From: Treponema sp. J25 | GTDB taxonomy: Bacteria > Spirochaetota > Spirochaetia > Treponematales > Breznakiellaceae | Assembly (NCBI RefSeq): GCF_004343725.1 | Contig: NZ_PTQW01000034.1 | Span: 1-62,976 of the forward strand | DNA: 62,976 nt | Direction: 5' to 3' | In this document: one piece after another, positions 10,780 to 20,525 of the stretch | How the letters are laid out: each line of letters starts with the position of its first letter | Position numbering within the stretch: position 1 is the first letter of the stretch | Notes under the pieces: generated by a model | Seen by the model: the letters and a program-made list of their open reading frames with translations, nothing else | Database searches by the model: none | What the model was told of the DNA's origin: nothing | Position numbers and translations under genes: made by a program

Positions 10780-11718
10780 CTAGTGGCATTCCACCGGTGG
10801 AAAAAGCAATTTTTCTAGTATTCCATCTTTTAGCAGATGTAAATTGAACAGGTACCCACCCTGTAGGTAATATTCTTTTAGAAAACGTTTGGCAAAATCC
10901 CATCCCTTCCCGTCGGTAATCCAGATAAAGTCAATGGTATCACAATTTTTCCTAATGTCATTTAATCTTTCTTTGTATTCCCGGGCAGTAGCATTTAACT
11001 TCGATCCACCACCGGTGTAATAATTTACTTCCATCAAAAAAAGTTTGTCTTTTGAGCGTACTGCAAAGTCATAAGTTCTATCAGGTATCTCTATATTCAC
11101 AGAAAAAGTCCTTTCAATTTTATCATTGTTAGCCTGTTTACAATAGCAAAAATCATCATGATATTTCTTCTTCAAAGATTCAAAATATTTTCCAACGATT
11201 TTTTCCATTAAGATTCCACTTCGATTTTTTCTTGCATTGGAATCAAGACCAACTTCGATACCATACATATAATCAACAAAATTCTTAATTTTGTTTTCAA
11301 GTATTAATGCATTAAGGCCTGATTTCAGAAAGAAATCGGCAATTTTCTGAATCTCCTCTTTCGGATATTTTTGTTTAGACCTAAAATCATACTTAATAGA
11401 CTCAGGTATTGAAAGCTCGGATCCTGAATTTTCATCTAAAATATTGAAAACCCTCTCGCGAGATGCAATTAAAAATGGAATTATTGGTACTATTCCTGGA
11501 TCTTTTGAAATAACTTCTATTAAGGCCTTTTGAGGATCGGTTTTACCAATGATATAGTTCAGTACGTTTAAGTGATACTCAATGTCATTAATTTTGCTAT
11601 AAATTTTCTCCCAGTCCACAAACCAATCAAAAATGGTCCTATTTTCGAATGTTTTGAGTATGTATTCAAAAGCTTCATCGTCTGTTTTGTATCCAAGCAA
11701 TTCGGTAATTCTGTTCAT
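10780..11718 (-). CDS. DpnII-family type II restriction endonuclease
   Basis: A 312-residue nuclease that resembles the DpnII family. It has a helical N-terminal half, then GILMEKIVGKYFE (about 168-180), TYDFAV with Asp217, and LFLMEVNYYTGGGSK with Glu230 and the family Gly-Ser-Lys signature at 236-240. In this family the catalytic site is a PD-(D/E)xK variant in which E-x-N follows the Asp. The gene is AT-rich compared with the efflux operon, a sign of transfer. It overlaps the methyltransferase stop by ATGA, so the two are co-expressed. GATC specificity is the family precedent, not something seen in the sequence. Confidence 0.8.
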   Translation of the reverse strand: MNRITELLGYKTDDEAFEYILKTFENRTIFDWFVDWEKIYSKINDIEYHLNVLNYIIGKTDPQKALIEVISKDPGIVPIIPFLIASRERVFNILDENSGSELSIPESIKYDFRSKQKYPKEEIQKIADFFLKSGLNALILENKIKNFVDYMYGIEVGLDSNARKNRSGILMEKIVGKYFESLKKKYHDDFCYCKQANNDKIERTFSVNIEIPDRTYDFAVRSKDKLFLMEVNYYTGGGSKLNATAREYKERLNDIRKNCDTIDFIWITDGKGWDFAKRFLKEYYLQGGYLFNLHLLKDGILEKLLFPPVECH

Positions 11719-12626
11719 TGGTAATTCTCAAATTGTAAAAGAGACAGATTTGTTTTTATGCTATCCTCAAGCCGTTCTTTTGTAATAGCACAATAGGCAG
11801 GGTCTATTTCTATTCCTATATAGTATCGCTTGCCGATCAATATGGTAGCCACACCCGTAGTGCCTCCTCCATTAAAAGGATCTAAAATAATATCTCCTGG
11901 TTTTGTAGAAGCTTCTATAATTCTTTTTAATAAAGCTACCGGTTTTTGTGTAGGATGTTTTCCAAACTTTTTTTCTTCTTGTTTCGGAGTCGGAATAGAC
12001 CAAACCGAACGCATTTGGGTGTTTTCTTTTTTTAAGAAATCTTCTGGATATTTCCCGTTTTTTACTTTTAAATAATTAAATGTATGTTTAGCTTTTTTAT
12101 CCTTTTTTGCCCAAAGAAGGGTTTCGTGAGAAGCAGTAAAATATCGACAACTTAAATTAGGAGATGCATTCGGTTTAAACCAGGCGATATCATTTAAAAT
12201 ATGAAAATTAAGTTTTTGTAATATATACCCACACTGATAGATACTATGGTACGTACCGCTTATCCAAATGGTTCCTTCTGGTTTTAAAACCCTTCTACAA
12301 GCAGCAATCCATGTTTCGTGAAAAAGTGTATCGTTCTCAAACCCTTTGCTTTTGTCCCATTTACCTTTATTGACACTTACCATTCGCCCATTCTGACATG
12401 TAATACCATTGTTAGAAAGCATATAGGGAGGATCTGCGAAGATCATGTCTATCGATTCATCAGGAAGTTTCTCTAATACCTCTAAGCAATCGGCATTGAA
12501 TAAGGCTGTTTTATCTGTTTTATAGAACAATGAGGGAGCCATATTTATTTTACTTACTAGTTCTTCAAAGCGCTTGCCAGGATGGAGAATTTCGTTTACC
12601 TGTTCTATGTGTTGGGCTTCAGTCAT
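11715..12626 (-). CDS. DNA adenine methyltransferase, DpnA/M2.DpnII-like
   Basis: A 303-residue N6-adenine methyltransferase of the beta arrangement, with catalytic DPPY first (residues 65-68) and the SAM-binding DPFNGGGTTG at 249-258. Between them lie VSVNKGKWD, WISGTYHSIY and NLSCRYFTASHETLLWA, the pattern of the second methyltransferase of DpnII systems (DpnA) and its HinfI-like relatives. It protects host DNA from the adjoining nuclease. DpnII itself has two methyltransferases; here I see only this one. It comes first in the operon, so modification precedes cutting. AT-rich, probably horizontally acquired. Confidence 0.85.
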   Translation of the reverse strand: MTEAQHIEQVNEILHPGKRFEELVSKINMAPSLFYKTDKTALFNADCLEVLEKLPDESIDMIFADPPYMLSNNGITCQNGRMVSVNKGKWDKSKGFENDTLFHETWIAACRRVLKPEGTIWISGTYHSIYQCGYILQKLNFHILNDIAWFKPNASPNLSCRYFTASHETLLWAKKDKKAKHTFNYLKVKNGKYPEDFLKKENTQMRSVWSIPTPKQEEKKFGKHPTQKPVALLKRIIEASTKPGDIILDPFNGGGTTGVATILIGKRYYIGIEIDPAYCAITKERLEDSIKTNLSLLQFENYQ

Positions 12627-12685: not shown

Positions 12686-14062
12686 TTAGTTTTCTTCCAT
12701 ATACCGTTGGGCGCGTTCTGCAAGGGTAGCAAAAATAGCCTGCCGTTTCCTATCGTCCTGTTCGAGGAGGGTAAAGCGAAAGCCTTGGAACTCAGTCGCA
12801 AAACCCGAGAGGGGAACCACACAGATCCCTGTACTTGCCAGAAGCCAATACGCAAAACGTTTGTCCGGAGCGGATGGATGAGTTGCGTGTTCTATGATGC
12901 TTTCTATGTAAGAGGCTAAGGATGCTGTTTCTATAGAGAAGGGCCTTTTTTTTGACCTTTCCTCTGCTAAGAAATCCGTATCAAACAGAACCGTGGCATA
13001 AAAGGCCCCTTCGGGCATGATAAATGTAAGGCCTTCTTTCCCTCGAAAAGCTTCACGGGCTTCCTGGGCTCGCTGGGCAAATTGGGCTTTCCGTTTTTCC
13101 AGATGGGCAGAATATTGGGGATTACCCATAATGGCGGGAATGCAGAGTTGGGGAAGGCTAGTGGCACAGACTTCAAGCCGTTTTGCCGCAGCGATGCCTT
13201 CGATATAGAGGGCAAATTCTCTGTTCGTTGCTTTGTTGTATACTTCAATCCAGCCACAGCGAGCGCCGGGCCAGGGAATTTCTTTAGAAATTGAACGGAG
13301 GGCGATACCAGGAACGTCTCCAATCACCTGGGCAAGGGATGCGGTAGGAGAGGGCCCAAAATGGATGTTAAGATAGGTTTCATCAGCAATGATAAACAAA
13401 CCGTGGCGCCGAACAATTTCTACAATATGTGAAATAGTTTCTGGTGTATATACCGTTCCCGTAGGATTCCCCGGATTGATGTATACAATTCCGACGATAT
13501 CAGGGTTCATTTCCACAAGCTGTTCTAGTTGATTGAGGTCGGGCTCCCAGTTCCGTAAAGGATCCAGTGGATAGGTAATGGGAGGCTTCCCTGAATGGAA
13601 GGTCTCTGCGCCAGCATGGGCAGGATAACAAGGAGAAGGGATAAGGATGCGAGAAGCGGGGTCTAATAGCTGGTATAATTTTCCAATTGCGTCCCCAAGA
13701 CCATTAAAAAAGATGATATCCTCCTGTTCGAGGTGGGAGCAGGGAGCCCCAGGCAAGGTGTTACCGTTAGTTCCTTGTACGACTTGGTTCCTTCGTTGAT
13801 TTACCTGGGCCGCAATAAATTCCCGGCTTTCTCCGATACCTTCGGTTTCAGAATAGGCATAGGAACAGTTTTCTCTGGTTTTTTCTGCCACTATGGAGCG
13901 AATCCATTCAGGAACGCTTTCCCCCTTTTTTACGGGGTCCCCGATGTTCTCCCAGATGATGGGAATATGCCAGCGGCTTTCGATGGTTTTTGCTACGGCG
14001 ACGATATCCCGGATTTCATAATGGATTTTCCCCGCATGGGGATGCACAATGCTTCTGCGCAT
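12686..14062 (-). CDS. PLP-dependent aminotransferase, alanine/aspartate class
   Basis: A fold-type I class I/II aminotransferase. It has FFNGLGDAIGKLYQLL (cofactor-phosphate region), YINPGNPTGTVY, FIIADETYLNIHFG (Asp and Tyr that hold PLP), and the PLP lysine in SISKEIPWPGARCGW. The segment LYIEGIAAAKRLEVCA resembles the AlaA-type alanine aminotransferases (pyruvate + glutamate to alanine). I prefer ATG 14062 (458 residues) over the in-frame ATG 14110. AGGAGG lies five bases before 14062, and the longer start would sit at the foot of the terminator at 14111-14147. The leader peptide upstream carries four consecutive Ala codons, which fits an alanine link. Exact substrate specificity is inferred. 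Confidence 0.85.
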   Translation of the reverse strand: MRRSIVHPHAGKIHYEIRDIVAVAKTIESRWHIPIIWENIGDPVKKGESVPEWIRSIVAEKTRENCSYAYSETEGIGESREFIAAQVNQRRNQVVQGTNGNTLPGAPCSHLEQEDIIFFNGLGDAIGKLYQLLDPASRILIPSPCYPAHAGAETFHSGKPPITYPLDPLRNWEPDLNQLEQLVEMNPDIVGIVYINPGNPTGTVYTPETISHIVEIVRRHGLFIIADETYLNIHFGPSPTASLAQVIGDVPGIALRSISKEIPWPGARCGWIEVYNKATNREFALYIEGIAAAKRLEVCATSLPQLCIPAIMGNPQYSAHLEKRKAQFAQRAQEAREAFRGKEGLTFIMPEGAFYATVLFDTDFLAEERSKKRPFSIETASLASYIESIIEHATHPSAPDKRFAYWLLASTGICVVPLSGFATEFQGFRFTLLEQDDRKRQAIFATLAERAQRYMEEN

Positions 14063-14110
14063 AGGGCCCTCCTGCCGCTCCTCGGGGTTGGGCCCCTGTC
14101 CAACGGACAT

Positions 14111-14147
14111 AAAAAAAGCCGCAATCCCCGCATGGTGGATCGCGGCC
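14111..14147 (-). terminator. Attenuator terminator before the aminotransferase
   Basis: On the minus strand GCCGCGATCC (within 14137-14147) pairs with GGATTGCGGC (14118-14127) over ten base pairs, and seven T's follow (14117-14111). It lies about 50 nt upstream of the aminotransferase start, so it must be conditionally read through. See the attenuator entry. Confidence 0.7.
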
Positions 14148-14192
14148 TTGTGATATATAAACAGCTAGCCGCGACCCGGTGGATCTGCGGCT
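14111..14192 (-). promoter_or_regulatory. Transcription attenuator (1:2, 2:3, 3:4 pairing)
   Basis: Four complementary segments on the minus strand. Segment 1 is AGCCGCAGATCC (14192-14181) and segment 2 is GGGTCGCGGCT (14177-14167). Segment 3 is GGCCGCGATCC (14147-14137) and segment 4 is GGATTGCGGC (14127-14118), followed by T7. Pairs 1:2 and 3:4 give an anti-antiterminator plus terminator. Alternatively GGGTCGCGGC of segment 2 pairs with GCCGCGATCC of segment 3 over ten pairs, one of them G-U, which prevents the terminator. This is the classic layout of an amino-acid biosynthetic attenuator. No T-box motif was seen, so control by the leader peptide is the likely mechanism. Confidence 0.65.
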
Positions 14193-14239
14193 GCTGCGAC
14201 GAAACAAAAAAGGATTGAAAAACAGGATTGGTAAACCAT
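14165..14239 (-). CDS. Putative attenuator leader peptide (24 codons)
   Basis: ATG at 14239-14237 opens a 24-codon frame. It contains FSILFCF and then four Ala codons in a row (GCA GCA GCC GCA), and ends ADPPGRG at a TAG (14167-14165) that coincides with the end of segment 2. A ribosome stalled on the Ala run or the Phe codons would cover segment 1 and favour the 2:3 antiterminator. The ATG sits at the predicted transcription start, so translation may be leaderless. A longer overlapping frame starting a few bases upstream (MMKTWF) has no stop here and is less convincing. Confidence 0.45.
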   Translation of the reverse strand: MVYQSCFSILFCFVAAAADPPGRG

Positions 14240-14245
14240 GTCTTC

Positions 14246-14274
14246 ATCATTGGCGAGAAGAAGCAAAATGTCAA
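14246..14274 (-). promoter_or_regulatory. Promoter of the leader/aminotransferase transcript
   Basis: On the minus strand a consensus TTGACA (14274-14269) and AATGAT (14251-14246) are 17 bases apart. The expected start site, 6-7 bases further on, coincides with the leader ATG at 14239. Confidence 0.5.
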
Positions 14275-14439: not shown

Positions 14440-15105
14440 ATGAAAGCTTTTATTAGTTATTGTGCACATAACTACTACCAGCATGCTCAAAAAGCAAAAG
14501 AATTTTTAGAGGCAATAGAAATTAAATCGTTTCTAGCAGATGACGATTTAAGAACTGCATCTGATTGGAAAAATACAATTGTTAAAGAAATTAATACATC
14601 AGAAATATTTATACCTTTACTTTCTAAGGAATTTAAAGCCTCTGATTGGTGTTCTCAAGAGCTAGGGATTGCTTATTCGCAGGCGAAAAAGATAATTCCG
14701 ATTAGCCTTGATGGTACAAAACCGTATGGATTTATCAATCATCTGCAAACAAGATCCTATGAGAATTATGGGTTACAGTTACTCATAGCAGAAGGTCTAC
14801 TGGAAAATCATATTATGAATGGGGGCTTAGGTTTTGCTAAACTTGTAAAAGAGGCTGGATGTTTTCGATATTCAGAAATAGTTTTTAAAATACTGTACCC
14901 CTTTTTCGATGTTTTAGATAAAGAGACCTTAAATCAGATAATTGTATCCGCTATAAAAAATGGCCAAGTATGGTTAGCCAATGAATGTGCAGAAAAGTAT
15001 ATACCTGAATTGCTAAAAAAACGAAAAAACGATATAGATCCTGAACTATATAGAAAATTAGAATATCAAATCAGAGAAGGAAGATGGTATTCTGATAATG
15101 TATAA
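14440..15105 (+). CDS. TIR-domain protein, first gene of the defence operon
   Basis: A 221-residue protein with an N-terminal TIR domain (about residues 1-120): MKAFISYCAHN at strand A, then SEIFIPLLSKEF and ASDWCSQELGIAY. The Glu in the last motif matches the catalytic glutamate of NAD-cleaving TIR enzymes. The C-terminal 100 residues are helical and unrecognised, possibly a sensor or adaptor part. TIR domains in bacterial immunity usually degrade NAD or make cyclic-ADP-ribose-type signals. AAGGAGGGG lies eight bases before the ATG. AT-rich. It is 50 bp from the DUF499 gene and in the same direction, so probably the effector of this operon. Confidence 0.75.
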   Translation: MKAFISYCAHNYYQHAQKAKEFLEAIEIKSFLADDDLRTASDWKNTIVKEINTSEIFIPLLSKEFKASDWCSQELGIAYSQAKKIIPISLDGTKPYGFINHLQTRSYENYGLQLLIAEGLLENHIMNGGLGFAKLVKEAGCFRYSEIVFKILYPFFDVLDKETLNQIIVSAIKNGQVWLANECAEKYIPELLKKRKNDIDPELYRKLEYQIREGRWYSDNV

Positions 15106-15155
15106 TTCAAAGAAAATCTCTTGCTCATATTTTAAAAGAGGGTAATACTATAGCC

Positions 15156-18100
15156 ATGCCAACACTAGCTGAAACCTGTATCCCCCGGAAGTCCGTTTTT
15201 GACCGGGCCCGACGCGACACGGTACTTAACTTAAGTGATCTCTTACAGAATAGGCTTGATATCGATTATGCCCGTCAATTCTTTGAGGAAAATTATATTA
15301 CCGCCGGCATGAAGGTCCTTATCCAAAAAAGTTTTGATCGGCTTTCTGGTAAACAGGATCAACCCTCTGCGTACCTTTTATCCCAGGCTATGGGTGGCGG
15401 TAAAACCCATAGCATGATTGCTCTGGGGCTCTTAGCCCGCTATCCTGAAATCCGTCATCGATTAGGGACGGATTTTCAATTAGGGAATGAGGTCTATACT
15501 GTTATCGGTTTCGATGGTCGGGAATCGGATTACCCCTTTGGTCTATGGGGTGCCCTGGCGGATCAGTTAGGGCAGAAAGACCTCTTTGCATCCCTGTATA
15601 CTCCTTTGCAGGCCCCAGGGGTAACATCCTGGGTGCATCTATTAAAAAACAAATCTGTCATTATTCTATTAGATGAATTGCCTCCCTATTTTAATAATGC
15701 CCGGTCTATCCAAATTGGTTCTTCCAATCTAGCAGAAGTAACAGCTACAGCCCTCTCAAATTTGCTTGTTGCTGCAAACCGAGAAGAACTTTCGCGGGTA
15801 GTCATTGTAATCTCTGATCTTTCTTCCACTGCGTATACTGATGGTTCGCTGCTCATTAACCAAGCTTTGGAAAATTTCAGACAAGAAACACAACGGAATG
15901 TTGTTCCTATCGAACCAGTGGCAACCCAGGGGGATGAAATCTTTCATATTCTCCGGACTCGCCTTTTTGAAACCCTGCCAGATAACGCTGTTCGTGATGC
16001 TATTGCAGTGGCCTATGCAAAGTCGGTGGAACAGGCAAGGCAGATGGATCTGACGGCAGAAACACCCGCTTCCTTTGCAAGTCAGATTCGGGAATCCTAT
16101 CCCTTTCATTATGCTCTACGAGATCTTTATGGTCGCTTTAAAGCCAACCCAGGATTCCAGCAGACCAGGGGATTACTCCGACTTATGAGGGCTGTTACTG
16201 CAAATCTTTGGGAATCGGGGAAAGCCCAACGGCTTGAACTTATCCATCCTTACGATATTGATTTAAATGTTCAGGAAATCTTTAATGAATTTTCTACAAT
16301 AAATCCAACCCTTACCGAAGCAATACGGGTAGACATTGCCAACTTTGGTGCATCCCATGCCGAACAGCTTGATGCCAAATTAGGTGGTGAAAGTCAAGCT
16401 CAGGATGCGGCAAAGCTTTTGTATGTCGCTTCTTTGTCTACTGCACAAAATCCAGAACTGGGGCTTCATGACGGTGAACTTATCGCATGGCTATGCAGAC
16501 CCGGCAGAGATGTGTCCCGTATGAAAACAGATGTGCTGGAACAGCTTCCGGCCAGTGCTTGGTACCTCCACGTGTCTAATGATGGAAGGCTTTATTTTAA
16601 GAATGTACGAAACCTCGCGGCAACCCTTCATAGCTATGTAGAATCGTACAATAGGGAAACAAAAATAAAAGAATTGCGGGAATATTTAGTAAGCCTGTTT
16701 AAACCCATCCGAGGAGATGTATACCAGGAATGCCTGGTGTTACCGAATTGGGAGGAAGCTCAACCAGGAATAGAAAAAACAGTGTTAATTGTTACCGATC
16801 CCTTCTCTGTAACGGGCACTTCACAGCAAATACCTTTGCACCAGGAATGGATCCATTTTTATGAGAACCTGGAATACAAAAATAGGGTGCTTTTTCTTAC
16901 CGGTGATCGGGATACAATGGAAGAGGTATTAAAAAATGCCGCACTCCTTAAAGCTATCCGTACTATCCTGGCGGAACAGGAAAGTGAACATCTTTCTGAA
17001 CGGGATCCTCAAAGGATAGAAGCTAACCGGAGCAGAGATCGTATTTTGTTGAGTCTCAGGAGCGCCATACAGCAAACCTTTAGTATGGTTCTCTATCCGG
17101 GACGGTCAGGTTTACGGAAAGAAGAAATTAAGTTTGTTTTTGATGCCAATTCCTTTAATGGTGAAGATCAGATCCGTGAAGCCCTGAAGCAGTGCCAGAA
17201 ATTTAGCGATGGGAGTGGAAATATTGAAAGCTGGATTAGCAAAATAGAAGACCGTTTGTTCGATAATCAAAATCCAGTTCGATGGCGGGATATTAAAGCC
17301 CGGGCAGCCACTAAGCCGGATTGGCCCTTACATCTGCCCCGATTCCTTGATGATGTAAAAAATCAGGCTCTTCGCCTGGGTAAATGGCGCGAAGAGGGGG
17401 ATCTTATTCGAAAGGGACCGTTCCCGAAAGAACCTAGTACTGTTTCTATTATTGTAAAAAACAGGGATGAGACCACAGGTGTTACGGTATTGGATATTCG
17501 TCCTGTAGGTGGAACCAAAGTCGTTTATGAAATTGGAGATGGGGAGCCTACCACAACGAGTGAAGTTGTTCCAAACTATTCGGCCTTTGAAACAAAGGAT
17601 TTACGGCTGACATTTAAGTGTATCGATGAAAATGATCCAGGCCGGAAGAGTAAAATTGTCCGATGGACCAATAAGATTACTCTGCAAAGTCGGGTTTTTG
17701 AGCAGGCAGGAGAACGATATATAGAACTCCTGGCGATACCTCCTGTTCCTATTTATTATACAACCGATGGCACCGATCCAAGAATTCATGGAGTGTCCTA
17801 CGAGGGCCCTTTTCCAATTCCTTCTGGTTGCAGGGTCATTCAGGCCATAGGGAAAAAAGATGATATCGAAAGCGATCTGCTTACTCGGGATATTCAGCAA
17901 ATAACAAATAGAAGCGTGGACCCCGCCCGTTCATTAATCTGGAAAACAAAGCGTTTTATAAACCTTACTACAAATGATGCGTGGGAACTTATTAGTCGTA
18001 TGGAAGAATTTAATGCTATAGGAGAAGGTATAACTCTCTATCTGGAATTCCCTGAGACTGGCGGTGAAGAATTTAATTATACCGCTCCCCCGGGAATTAA

Positions 18101-18272
18101 AAAAAGCGGTGTAGAACTCCGAAAAATCCTAGAAATGATAGGATCCTATGGGGACACTCCAAATATCACGTTGAGCCTTCACCAATTGCATTTTGAACGG
18201 GGGCAAGGTTTTCTTGATTGGGTTAATAAATATAGAATTGCCTACGATTTTGATCGAGAGGTACATCAGTGA
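15156..18272 (+). CDS. DUF499 anti-phage-associated ATPase
   Basis: A 1038-residue protein with a P-loop ATPase of the DUF499 family. The family N-terminus is recognisable (CIPRKSVFDRARRDTVLNL). Walker A is AMGGGKTHS at about residues 78-86 and Walker B is SVIILLDELPPYF near 169-181. The middle part is long and helical. Near residues 865-905 the segment IYYTTDGTDPRIHGVSYEG looks like a small beta-sandwich of the chitobiase C-terminal type, probably a surface-binding module. DUF499 proteins recur with DUF1156 methyltransferases, DUF3780 and PLD-type helicases in DISARM-related defence loci. The next gene overlaps its stop by four bases. Confidence 0.82.
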   Translation: MPTLAETCIPRKSVFDRARRDTVLNLSDLLQNRLDIDYARQFFEENYITAGMKVLIQKSFDRLSGKQDQPSAYLLSQAMGGGKTHSMIALGLLARYPEIRHRLGTDFQLGNEVYTVIGFDGRESDYPFGLWGALADQLGQKDLFASLYTPLQAPGVTSWVHLLKNKSVIILLDELPPYFNNARSIQIGSSNLAEVTATALSNLLVAANREELSRVVIVISDLSSTAYTDGSLLINQALENFRQETQRNVVPIEPVATQGDEIFHILRTRLFETLPDNAVRDAIAVAYAKSVEQARQMDLTAETPASFASQIRESYPFHYALRDLYGRFKANPGFQQTRGLLRLMRAVTANLWESGKAQRLELIHPYDIDLNVQEIFNEFSTINPTLTEAIRVDIANFGASHAEQLDAKLGGESQAQDAAKLLYVASLSTAQNPELGLHDGELIAWLCRPGRDVSRMKTDVLEQLPASAWYLHVSNDGRLYFKNVRNLAATLHSYVESYNRETKIKELREYLVSLFKPIRGDVYQECLVLPNWEEAQPGIEKTVLIVTDPFSVTGTSQQIPLHQEWIHFYENLEYKNRVLFLTGDRDTMEEVLKNAALLKAIRTILAEQESEHLSERDPQRIEANRSRDRILLSLRSAIQQTFSMVLYPGRSGLRKEEIKFVFDANSFNGEDQIREALKQCQKFSDGSGNIESWISKIEDRLFDNQNPVRWRDIKARAATKPDWPLHLPRFLDDVKNQALRLGKWREEGDLIRKGPFPKEPSTVSIIVKNRDETTGVTVLDIRPVGGTKVVYEIGDGEPTTTSEVVPNYSAFETKDLRLTFKCIDENDPGRKSKIVRWTNKITLQSRVFEQAGERYIELLAIPPVPIYYTTDGTDPRIHGVSYEGPFPIPSGCRVIQAIGKKDDIESDLLTRDIQQITNRSVDPARSLIWKTKRFINLTTNDAWELISRMEEFNAIGEGITLYLEFPETGGEEFNYTAPPGIKKSGVELRKILEMIGSYGDTPNITLSLHQLHFERGQGFLDWVNKYRIAYDFDREVHQ

Positions 18273-18859
18273 CCGGTAAGTTTGCTGGTTTTGGCTTTGA
18301 TCCCTTGAAGTATAACCATTTTTTTAGTTTGTTATTGCCTGTAGCAAAGGGTAGTCCAGAAAAAGCTGTCGTTAAAATTGTTGAACATTTTGAATGGAAG
18401 GACAGTATCCCTGATATAGCTGCCGTTCCCTATGACAGCAGGGAACTAAAAGCTCTTATTTCTCTCTCACTTTTTAAAGAAATAACTGAGCCCGTAAAGG
18501 CAGAATTTAATCGCCGCCTTACCGCAAAGGGGCTGCCAACCGGTAAGTGGCCTGCAAAAGGTGGTACTGCCTTGCTAAGCCCCGCATTTGGCAAAGAGCT
18601 TTTGGTTCTTCTCTGGGCTATAGAGGATGCGGATCCAACCCTGGTTCAGAATGCGGTCCGTAACTGGCTCGGGCTTTCTCCTGAGGAACGTTGGTGGCTC
18701 TATACCATGACCAATGCCGCCACAGGCCAGGCCTTTGCGGGCCGTAACCGGGGCTGGCGCAAGGCGCTTCGCTTTGCCCTTTGCGAAAATCCTATTACCG
18801 ATATGGCAATTATCAGGAAAAAGCCGGTTTTAGAACTGGAGCTGTTTGAGGACGAATAG
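18269..18859 (+). CDS. DUF3780-like anti-phage-associated protein
   Basis: A 196-residue protein without a catalytic motif that I can name. GFGFDPLKYNHFFSLLLP at the start and ERWWLYTMTNAATGQA with NRGWRKALRFALCENP near the end match my memory of DUF3780, which accompanies DUF499 and DUF1156 proteins in defence loci. GTG at 18269 overlaps the DUF499 stop (GTGA). The invariant Trp/Arg-rich C-terminal segment suggests nucleic-acid or partner binding. Its role is unknown. Confidence 0.65.
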   Translation: MTGKFAGFGFDPLKYNHFFSLLLPVAKGSPEKAVVKIVEHFEWKDSIPDIAAVPYDSRELKALISLSLFKEITEPVKAEFNRRLTAKGLPTGKWPAKGGTALLSPAFGKELLVLLWAIEDADPTLVQNAVRNWLGLSPEERWWLYTMTNAATGQAFAGRNRGWRKALRFALCENPITDMAIIRKKPVLELELFEDE

Positions 18860-18860
18860 G

Positions 18861-20525
18861 ATGCTTACGAAACTTGAAATCCATAATTTTAAAAATTTTG
18901 AAACCATCTCGATTGATGTAGCTCAGGTTACTGTCCTGGTGGGGCCTAACAATTCCGGAAAAACCACCATATTACAGGCTTTAACACTCTGGGATATAGC
19001 ACTGCGAAAATGGATTGCTAAGAAAACGAGCAGCAAAGCAAAAGAACGGACCGGCGTAACCATCAATAGGCAGGATTTGTTTGCTATCCCCGTACCGGAA
19101 GCAAAGCTCCTCTGGCACGATCTGCATGTCCGATCCGGAGTTGGCGAAAACAGCGCTGTTTTTTTAACGATTGTTTTAGAAGGTATAACAGACCAAAAAA
19201 AATGGAAAGCGGGTTTGCAGTTTTATTATGCTAACCCTGAATCGTTATACGTAAAGCCCATGGAAGGGCTGGATAATCCTGAAAATCTTGAACTAGCTCA
19301 AAAAGAAACAGTAGCATATTTGCCGCCCATGTCCGGCCTTTCAGCCGTAGAAGAACGCCTGGAAGAAGGCAGTATCCGCAGGCGTATCGGAGAAGGTCGT
19401 ACCGCCGAGGTGCTTCGGAACCTGCTTTGGAAAATCTATGATACCGATAAAAGTGCTTGGAATGAACTTTGCCAGGTTGTAAATAAAGAATTTGTTACCG
19501 AACTATTGCCGCCCCACTATCATAGTGCAACGAGCCTTATCACCTGCAGAATAAAGGAAAAGAATCATCCTGAAATGGATATTACCGCCAGCGGAAGGGG
19601 ATTCCAACAGTTCGTTTTGCTATATAGTTATTTGTATTATCAAAAACACACCATATTGCTTCTGGACGAGCCCGATGCTCATCTGGAAATAATTCGTCAG
19701 AAATCTCTCTTTAACGCCCTTGCGGATTATTGTAAAAAAAATAATAACCAGCTCATCATTGCCACCCATTCGGAAGCTATTCTGGATACCGCTGCGGAAA
19801 ATGGGGATCTCATTCTTGCCTTTGTAGGAACCCCTCACCGGGTTCAAAAACTGGAACACTTAAAAAAATCCCTCTCTGATATTCCCGCATCGGATTATAT
19901 GCTGGCCCTGGAAAAGCAACGCATTCTGTATGTAGAGGGCACGACAGATCTAGCCATGCTCAAGGCCTTTGCAAAGGTATTACAGCATCCTGTGCAAGAA
20001 AAATTGCAACAGACCTTTGTGGTCTACATGAATACCAATGACCTTTCATTTTGCAGAAAGCATTTCTTAGGCCTTAAAGAGGCTGTCCCTGAGCTACAAG
20101 CAGTACTTCTTACCGACCATCTAACGACAAAACCAGAGATGCCGCCGGGTCTTCTTCATCTTGAATGGAAACGGAACGAAATAGAATGCTATCTTCCCCT
20201 TCCAACTGTTCTATACCGTTATTTTTCAGATAATACAGAACAAAGAAGCGAGCTGTTTACCTCCGAGACTCAAGCTCTATTGCAGGAAATAATTACCCAG
20301 GAAACAGCTCCGGCAGCCCTCGTCGATCCAAACCATGAGTTCTGGAAAAATGAAAAGCTATCCGACAAATGGCTAAGCCCTATATTGCGAAAATATTACG
20401 AAGCTATCAGGTACCCCATGGAATTGCGGAAAAGCGATTTTTATCTCCTCGCGGAGCTGGCGCGGCCAGAGGAACTCGACCCGGAAATAAAAGAGAAACT
20501 TGATACGCTTGAACGTATGTTATAA
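18861..20525 (+). CDS. OLD-family ATPase/TOPRIM nuclease-like protein
   Basis: An ABC/SMC-like ATPase of 554 residues. Its N-terminal KLEIHNFKNFETISI and Walker A GPNNSGKTT (residues 29-37) are typical of RecF/OLD ATPases. An ABC-like signature (ITASGRGFQQFVLL) precedes Walker B TILLLDEPDAHLE. The C-terminal half starts with ILYVEGTTDLAMLKAFAK, the Glu-Gly-x-x-Asp core of an OLD-type TOPRIM domain, which in relatives cuts DNA. The start is ATG 18861, one base after the previous stop; the longer frame would overlap it. OLD proteins act in phage exclusion. Here it is inserted between the standard members of the set. Confidence 0.78.
   Translation: MLTKLEIHNFKNFETISIDVAQVTVLVGPNNSGKTTILQALTLWDIALRKWIAKKTSSKAKERTGVTINRQDLFAIPVPEAKLLWHDLHVRSGVGENSAVFLTIVLEGITDQKKWKAGLQFYYANPESLYVKPMEGLDNPENLELAQKETVAYLPPMSGLSAVEERLEEGSIRRRIGEGRTAEVLRNLLWKIYDTDKSAWNELCQVVNKEFVTELLPPHYHSATSLITCRIKEKNHPEMDITASGRGFQQFVLLYSYLYYQKHTILLLDEPDAHLEIIRQKSLFNALADYCKKNNNQLIIATHSEAILDTAAENGDLILAFVGTPHRVQKLEHLKKSLSDIPASDYMLALEKQRILYVEGTTDLAMLKAFAKVLQHPVQEKLQQTFVVYMNTNDLSFCRKHFLGLKEAVPELQAVLLTDHLTTKPEMPPGLLHLEWKRNEIECYLPLPTVLYRYFSDNTEQRSELFTSETQALLQEIITQETAPAALVDPNHEFWKNEKLSDKWLSPILRKYYEAIRYPMELRKSDFYLLAELARPEELDPEIKEKLDTLERML

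Follow-up and report, generated by a model that had tools for sequence, protein, structure and literature searches.

The stretch analysed here, termed the window, consists of positions 1-62,976 (62,976 nt) of contig NZ_PTQW01000034.1 of Treponema sp. J25. Its minus strand carries a gene for a PLP-dependent class I/II aminotransferase and, upstream of it, a leader element that extends from a promoter to a T7 tract (14274-14111). The individual features are listed in Table 1. The aminotransferase was assigned to its family with a score of 538.7 bits (cutoff 443). Its start codon was placed at 14062, 48 nt beyond the end of the T7 tract; a start at 14110 was rejected on the basis of the homology start and the Shine-Dalgarno sequence. 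The closest solved structures by sequence are Escherichia coli glutamate-pyruvate aminotransferase AlaA (3e-31) and a Pyrococcus furiosus transaminase (1xi9). An initial sequence-only reading of the locus had named the product an alanine-type aminotransferase, a reasonable description of which similarity, with E. coli AlaA as the nearest solved structure, is the sole basis; judged in this way, the enzyme probably makes alanine.

The gene upstream of the leader is divergent. The plus strand beside the aminotransferase (14440-20525) carries defence-like genes, namely those for a TIR-domain protein, a DUF499 anti-phage-associated protein, a DUF3780 protein and an OLD/AAA ATPase-like protein. Genes for a DpnII-type restriction enzyme and methyltransferase (10780-12626, minus strand) follow immediately 3' of the aminotransferase gene on the same strand. 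Since the gap is about 60 nt and no terminator is evident in it, read-through from the attenuated transcript into these genes is possible.

Table 1. Features of the leader and the regulated gene (window coordinates).
Feature	Positions	Strand	Remarks
-35 hexamer TTGACA	14269..14274	-	TTGAC(N) kept in relatives
-10 hexamer AATGAT	14246..14251	-	Spacer 17; 6 nt (GAAGAC) to ATG
Leader peptide ORF, 24 codons + TAG, MVYQSCFSILFCFVAAAADPPGRG, predicted leaderless	14165..14239	-	ATG at 14239
Four Ala control codons, GCA GCA GCC GCA	14186..14197	-	Ala runs of 4-8 in relatives
Segment 1, overlapping the Ala codons	14181..14197	-	From fold
Segment 2, spanning the leader stop	14161..14177	-	Portion pairing with segment 3 is 14177-14167
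Segment 3, partner of segment 2 (antiterminator) or segment 4 (terminator)	14137..14147	-	
Segment 4, 3' arm of terminator	14118..14129	-	From fold
T7 tract of intrinsic terminator	14111..14117	-	Read in sequence
Shine-Dalgarno AGGAGGG of aminotransferase	14067..14073	-	Read in sequence
PLP-dependent class I/II aminotransferase, NCBIfam NF005334 (PRK06855), regulated gene	12686..14062	-	Family profile match

The leader RNA folds with a z-score of -5.7, and none of 200 dinucleotide shuffles was equally stable. Hairpin 1:2 joins 14197-14181 to 14177-14161. The alternative 2:3 pairing (14177-14167 with 14147-14137) consists of 11 unbroken pairs and has an energy of -23.2; the shuffles averaged -11.3, and 0 of 200 reached the energy of the true sequence. 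Terminator 3:4 (14147-14117, -22.3 kcal/mol) is followed by the T7 tract at 14117-14111; the simple rule of the terminator scanner missed this hairpin. The promoter, the 24-codon leader frame and the pairing segments of the sequence-only reading were thus all found where it had placed them on the minus strand, and its description was correct except that it had counted ten pairs in 2:3. The predicted promoter scores 10 of 12. It is convincing through the cross-genome comparison described below and not through the promoter scan of the region, which by itself was not significant (3 found versus 0.9 expected).

Distribution of the leader

Orthologues of the aminotransferase were gathered from named genomes and from the family, class and phylum of the window, and their upstream regions were read. 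A short ORF that contains 4-8 Ala codons in a row and is followed by an intrinsic terminator lies 85-184 nt before the aminotransferase gene at orthologous PRK06855 loci, which come from at least 11 families of the class. Examples of the leader peptide are MNVEFVSMTETILAAAAAIREDRV in Breznakiella homolactica (L050), MNIRNEIHNIAAAAAILTAVR in L136, MENKDFKKIIFTKAAAALSYCGY in the AT-rich L094, MKHTNLSSQHLHLAAAAAAAATMVGPL in L132 and MSGITCSCTLFSTAAAAAARRGAAV in L184. By our own count, the Ala-run leader and terminator are present at 42 of 62 distinct Spirochaetia loci. They are absent from the other 20 (about one third), 12 of which belong to the window's own family (L002, L003, L158-L161, L163, L164, L167-L169 and L172); these 12 absences suggest that the control region has been lost or replaced more than once. 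The Ala-run leader was seen at none of 21 loci from the other classes of the phylum.

A covariance model was built from 14 leaders and run on 200 genomes of the window's family. 14 strong matches were obtained (E below 1e-15), each immediately 5' of a PRK06855 gene, the next best match being at 6e-4; the 14 include the training sequences, and the informative part of the result is that no strong locations were found elsewhere. Within the genome of strain J25 no second copy of the element was detected, only short chance matches, and being single copy it is not a dispersed repeat. A scan of the same genome for leaderless poly-Ala ORFs gave one plausible pattern, the leader of the window (one match in the reversed-pattern control).

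The one Desulfobacterota locus in the set, from a Geobacter sp. (L117), was extended to its family and order. In the 42 Geobacterales leaders analysed, an Ala-rich, apparently leaderless short ORF and a terminator lie 5' of the same aminotransferase family, with peptides such as MIIPVIAIAARAISAAASFAA; other members of the order have leader forms such as MYTNSVTSRGSVHAAAAARPF. The distance from TTGAC to ATG is steady at 36-39 nt in all 42. An antiterminator exceeding shuffles at the 5% level was found in only 7 of the 42. We regard the apparent sharing of the spirochaete architecture by these leaders as a strong lead. Conserved GCACGAGCTA and GCAGCGGCG blocks were also observed at the Geobacterales loci (L117, L235-L244, L247-L257 and L307-L336).

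Alanine codons and start of the leader ORF

Because the initial scans had searched for Ala runs, the choice of leader ORFs was repeated blind to alanine, accepting any ATG located 5-8 nt past a good sigma-70 -10 element with a -35 element and opening a frame of 10-45 codons. An ORF was found by this rule at 37 of 62 Spirochaetia loci, and 35 of the 37 contain a run of at least four Ala codons; the other two have 3 or 4 scattered Ala codons each. At control loci the rule found two ORFs in 91 loci, neither with an Ala run. The background in the same loci is 13 short ATG ORFs with four or more consecutive Ala codons per 790 kb-strand.

All four Ala codons are used over the leaders (GCA 71, GCC 71, GCG 49, GCT 25) and no Ala-type runs occur in their other two frames, which argues for selection on the codons and not for a GC-rich stem. 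Apart from alanine the peptide is free to vary. Phe codons, which the sequence-only reading had offered as an alternative trigger for stalling, number 0-3 per leader and are not conserved; phenylalanine was dropped as a candidate control residue. Two AT-rich leaders, those of L133 (MNTYKALQLNNSAKASVINSLW) and L188 (MFIYIAKTNTISASAKALHLLW), have 3-4 non-consecutive Ala codons and still keep the promoter, leaderless-type ORF, antiterminator and terminator.

At sigma-70 promoters, transcription usually starts 5-9 nt past the -10 element. In 37 curated leaders the distance from the -10 element to the leader ATG is 6 nt (20 leaders), 7 nt (10), 8 nt (2) or 5 nt (1), and is larger or was not found in four, so that 33 of the 37 have a gap of 5-8 nt between the -10 element and the ATG. 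A strict promoter rule is satisfied by 32 of 37 leaders and by 0.9% of 11,195 background ATGs. Together with the usual start distance, the 5-8 nt spacing predicts that the transcript begins at the AUG or is displaced from it by one or two bases at most. The coincidence of the leader ATG with the predicted +1, pointed out for the window from its sequence, is therefore kept in relatives as a predicted spacing, and leaderless translation of the leader ORF looks conserved by this measure.

Alternative pairings

The leader stop lies at the end of segment 2 in the window, as the first reading had it, and in most relatives; in 24 leaders the ends of segment 2 and of the leader ORF are offset by -6 to +4 nt. 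When a ribosome was simulated at the first Ala codon, at least 7 bp of 2:3 could form before segment 4 was made in 35 of 36 spirochaete leaders; with the ribosome at the stop codon, the terminator was left in 34 of the 36. In this ribosome model the full-length stalled RNA of the window still favours terminator 3:4. The switch must therefore be kinetic and be decided during transcription, in which the window leader resembles other attenuators.

Partner bases co-vary between families at several positions; for example, L188, L133 and L094 have T-A where the window's family has C-G. The table of between-family pairs was drawn from predicted duplexes and is biased toward showing pairs. In the alignment of the window's family (14 sequences), about 96% of cells are paired in 2:3, 1:2 and 3:4, with double changes at two pairs in 3:4 and at none in 2:3. 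The refutation check proposed with the initial reading came out in favour of that reading: relatives keep the segments, with paired changes between families, although strict compensatory changes within the window's family are few. The within-family covariation is consistent with the switch, weakly so.

The antiterminator is absent, ambiguous or located elsewhere in L132, L134, L136, L181, L185, L189, L196 and L197, and a terminator was not found in L180. In L136, L185, L196 and L197, among others, the pairing partner lies 3' of the leader ORF and not at its end. L136, L196 and L197 also have a hairpin with a T-run 11-60 nt before the gene, and this hairpin is distinct from the pairing close to the stop codon of the leader. 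These three leaders perhaps have a different or double termination arrangement; the automatic choice of terminator in them may be wrong, another hairpin being closer to the leader.

Proposed mechanism and related systems

The element is best explained as a ribosome-mediated, alanine-responsive transcription attenuator with a leaderless leader peptide, which would sense charged tRNA-Ala and control the aminotransferase gene (estimated probability of about 0.87). Transcription would begin exactly at the leader AUG or no more than one or two bases away, and the leader peptide would be made from a leaderless message. With ample alanyl-tRNA, the ribosome would reach the stop codon and cover segment 2, so that terminator 3:4 could form and transcription would halt about 50 nt before the gene. 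With scarce alanyl-tRNA, a ribosome stalled on the Ala codons would cover segment 1; 2:3 would pair, the terminator would be blocked and the gene would be transcribed. If the leader were not translated, 1:2 and 3:4 would both form and the gene would be off.

The main rival, which we consider improbable, is a general translation-stress attenuator, set off by a slow or drug-stalled ribosome (as in whiB7 or erm) or by a self-stalling nascent poly-Ala peptide and not by uncharged tRNA-Ala. The geometry of the leader would react to any stall 5' of segment 2, and ribosomes that stall on the upstream ORF (uORF) of mycobacterial whiB7 induce that gene (PMC10727445). Such a sensor needs no particular residue, however, whereas it is the Ala run that recurs, in 35 of 37 leaders chosen without regard to it, in otherwise free peptides; moreover, the regulated gene resembles those of alanine aminotransferases.

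Direct sensing of alanine or another metabolite by a ligand-binding riboswitch or a protein-binding leader would equally place a conserved alternative pairing 5' of a metabolic gene. It is unlikely, and less probable than a general stall sensor, given that conservation tracks the codons with their third bases free, and that, the pairing segments and the ORF aside, no conserved aptamer-like core is seen. No Rfam covariance model matched the window or 12 related loci, on which grounds a T-box, a riboswitch and a known leader family were rejected. Least probable of all is a bare terminator insulating the gene from upstream transcription, with an ORF arisen by chance: the 3:4 hairpin and T7 tract do make a good terminator and the upstream neighbour is divergent, but the same set of promoter, promoter-to-ATG distance, Ala codons and a leader stop where segment 2 ends is found again amid unrelated upstream sequence, and the covariance model locates the element solely before the PRK06855 gene.

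The alanine-responsive attenuator proposed here resembles the trp, his, leu, thr, phe and ilv leaders of Proteobacteria in its control-codon ORF, its stop at segment 2, its 1:2, 2:3 and 3:4 pairings, its terminator and the biosynthetic gene that follows. It differs from these classical attenuators in using alanine, in lying in Spirochaetota, in being predicted leaderless and in having no Rfam leader match. Attenuators for other amino acids have been described (PMC1262725, PMC2965389, PMC8632094); according to a 2010 survey, no leader peptide system outside Proteobacteria and Actinobacteria had been demonstrated until the Firmicutes case that it presented itself (PMC2965389). The Actinobacteria leader peptides of trp, cys, ilv and leuS were predicted by the same comparative-genomics logic, and an alanine case is absent from that study (0 mentions), which also found no conserved terminator hairpins for the mycobacterial cys leaders in its 2005 comparison (PMC1262725).

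The closest known counterpart is the uORF-based attenuator of mycobacterial whiB7, which has been linked to alanine starvation (PMID 38266648, as related in PMC13236596 and PMC10727445). As far as these accounts describe it, it likewise has a uORF, an antiterminator and a terminator, and is tied through WhiB7 to alanine starvation and an alanine biosynthesis gene; in contrast to the J25 leader, which would control an aminotransferase in cis, it controls a transcription factor and answers many stalls. The trpL leader ORF of Sinorhizobium meliloti likewise lies at the 5' end of its transcript, in another phylum and for another amino acid (PMC7298713), and the mycobacterial polycysteine sORFs (PMID 32181921, as cited in PMC13236596) are leaderless too, again with a different amino acid and phylum. 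The suggestion that alanine attenuation in a spirochaete is undescribed agrees with the open-licence literature, in which we found no biosynthetic gene under an alanine leader attenuator and no leader attenuator in spirochaetes; a report outside that literature may exist.

On balance, and with moderate confidence, we lean toward a wider reading in which the alanine-specific leaderless attenuator is the widespread standard control of PRK06855 genes, an aminotransferase family so far unassigned, in Spirochaetota and in Geobacterales of the Desulfobacterota. The start at the first base would then itself belong to the mechanism by letting the first ribosome load onto the RNA immediately on its emergence, and the distribution of the element would assign the family to alanine synthesis. 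If the alanine attenuator is real, one amino acid and one phylum would be added to the textbook leader-peptide attenuators, leaderless initiation would become a conserved attenuator feature beyond Actinobacteria and rhizobia, and the PRK06855 aminotransferases would gain a first functional clue, namely alanine synthesis.
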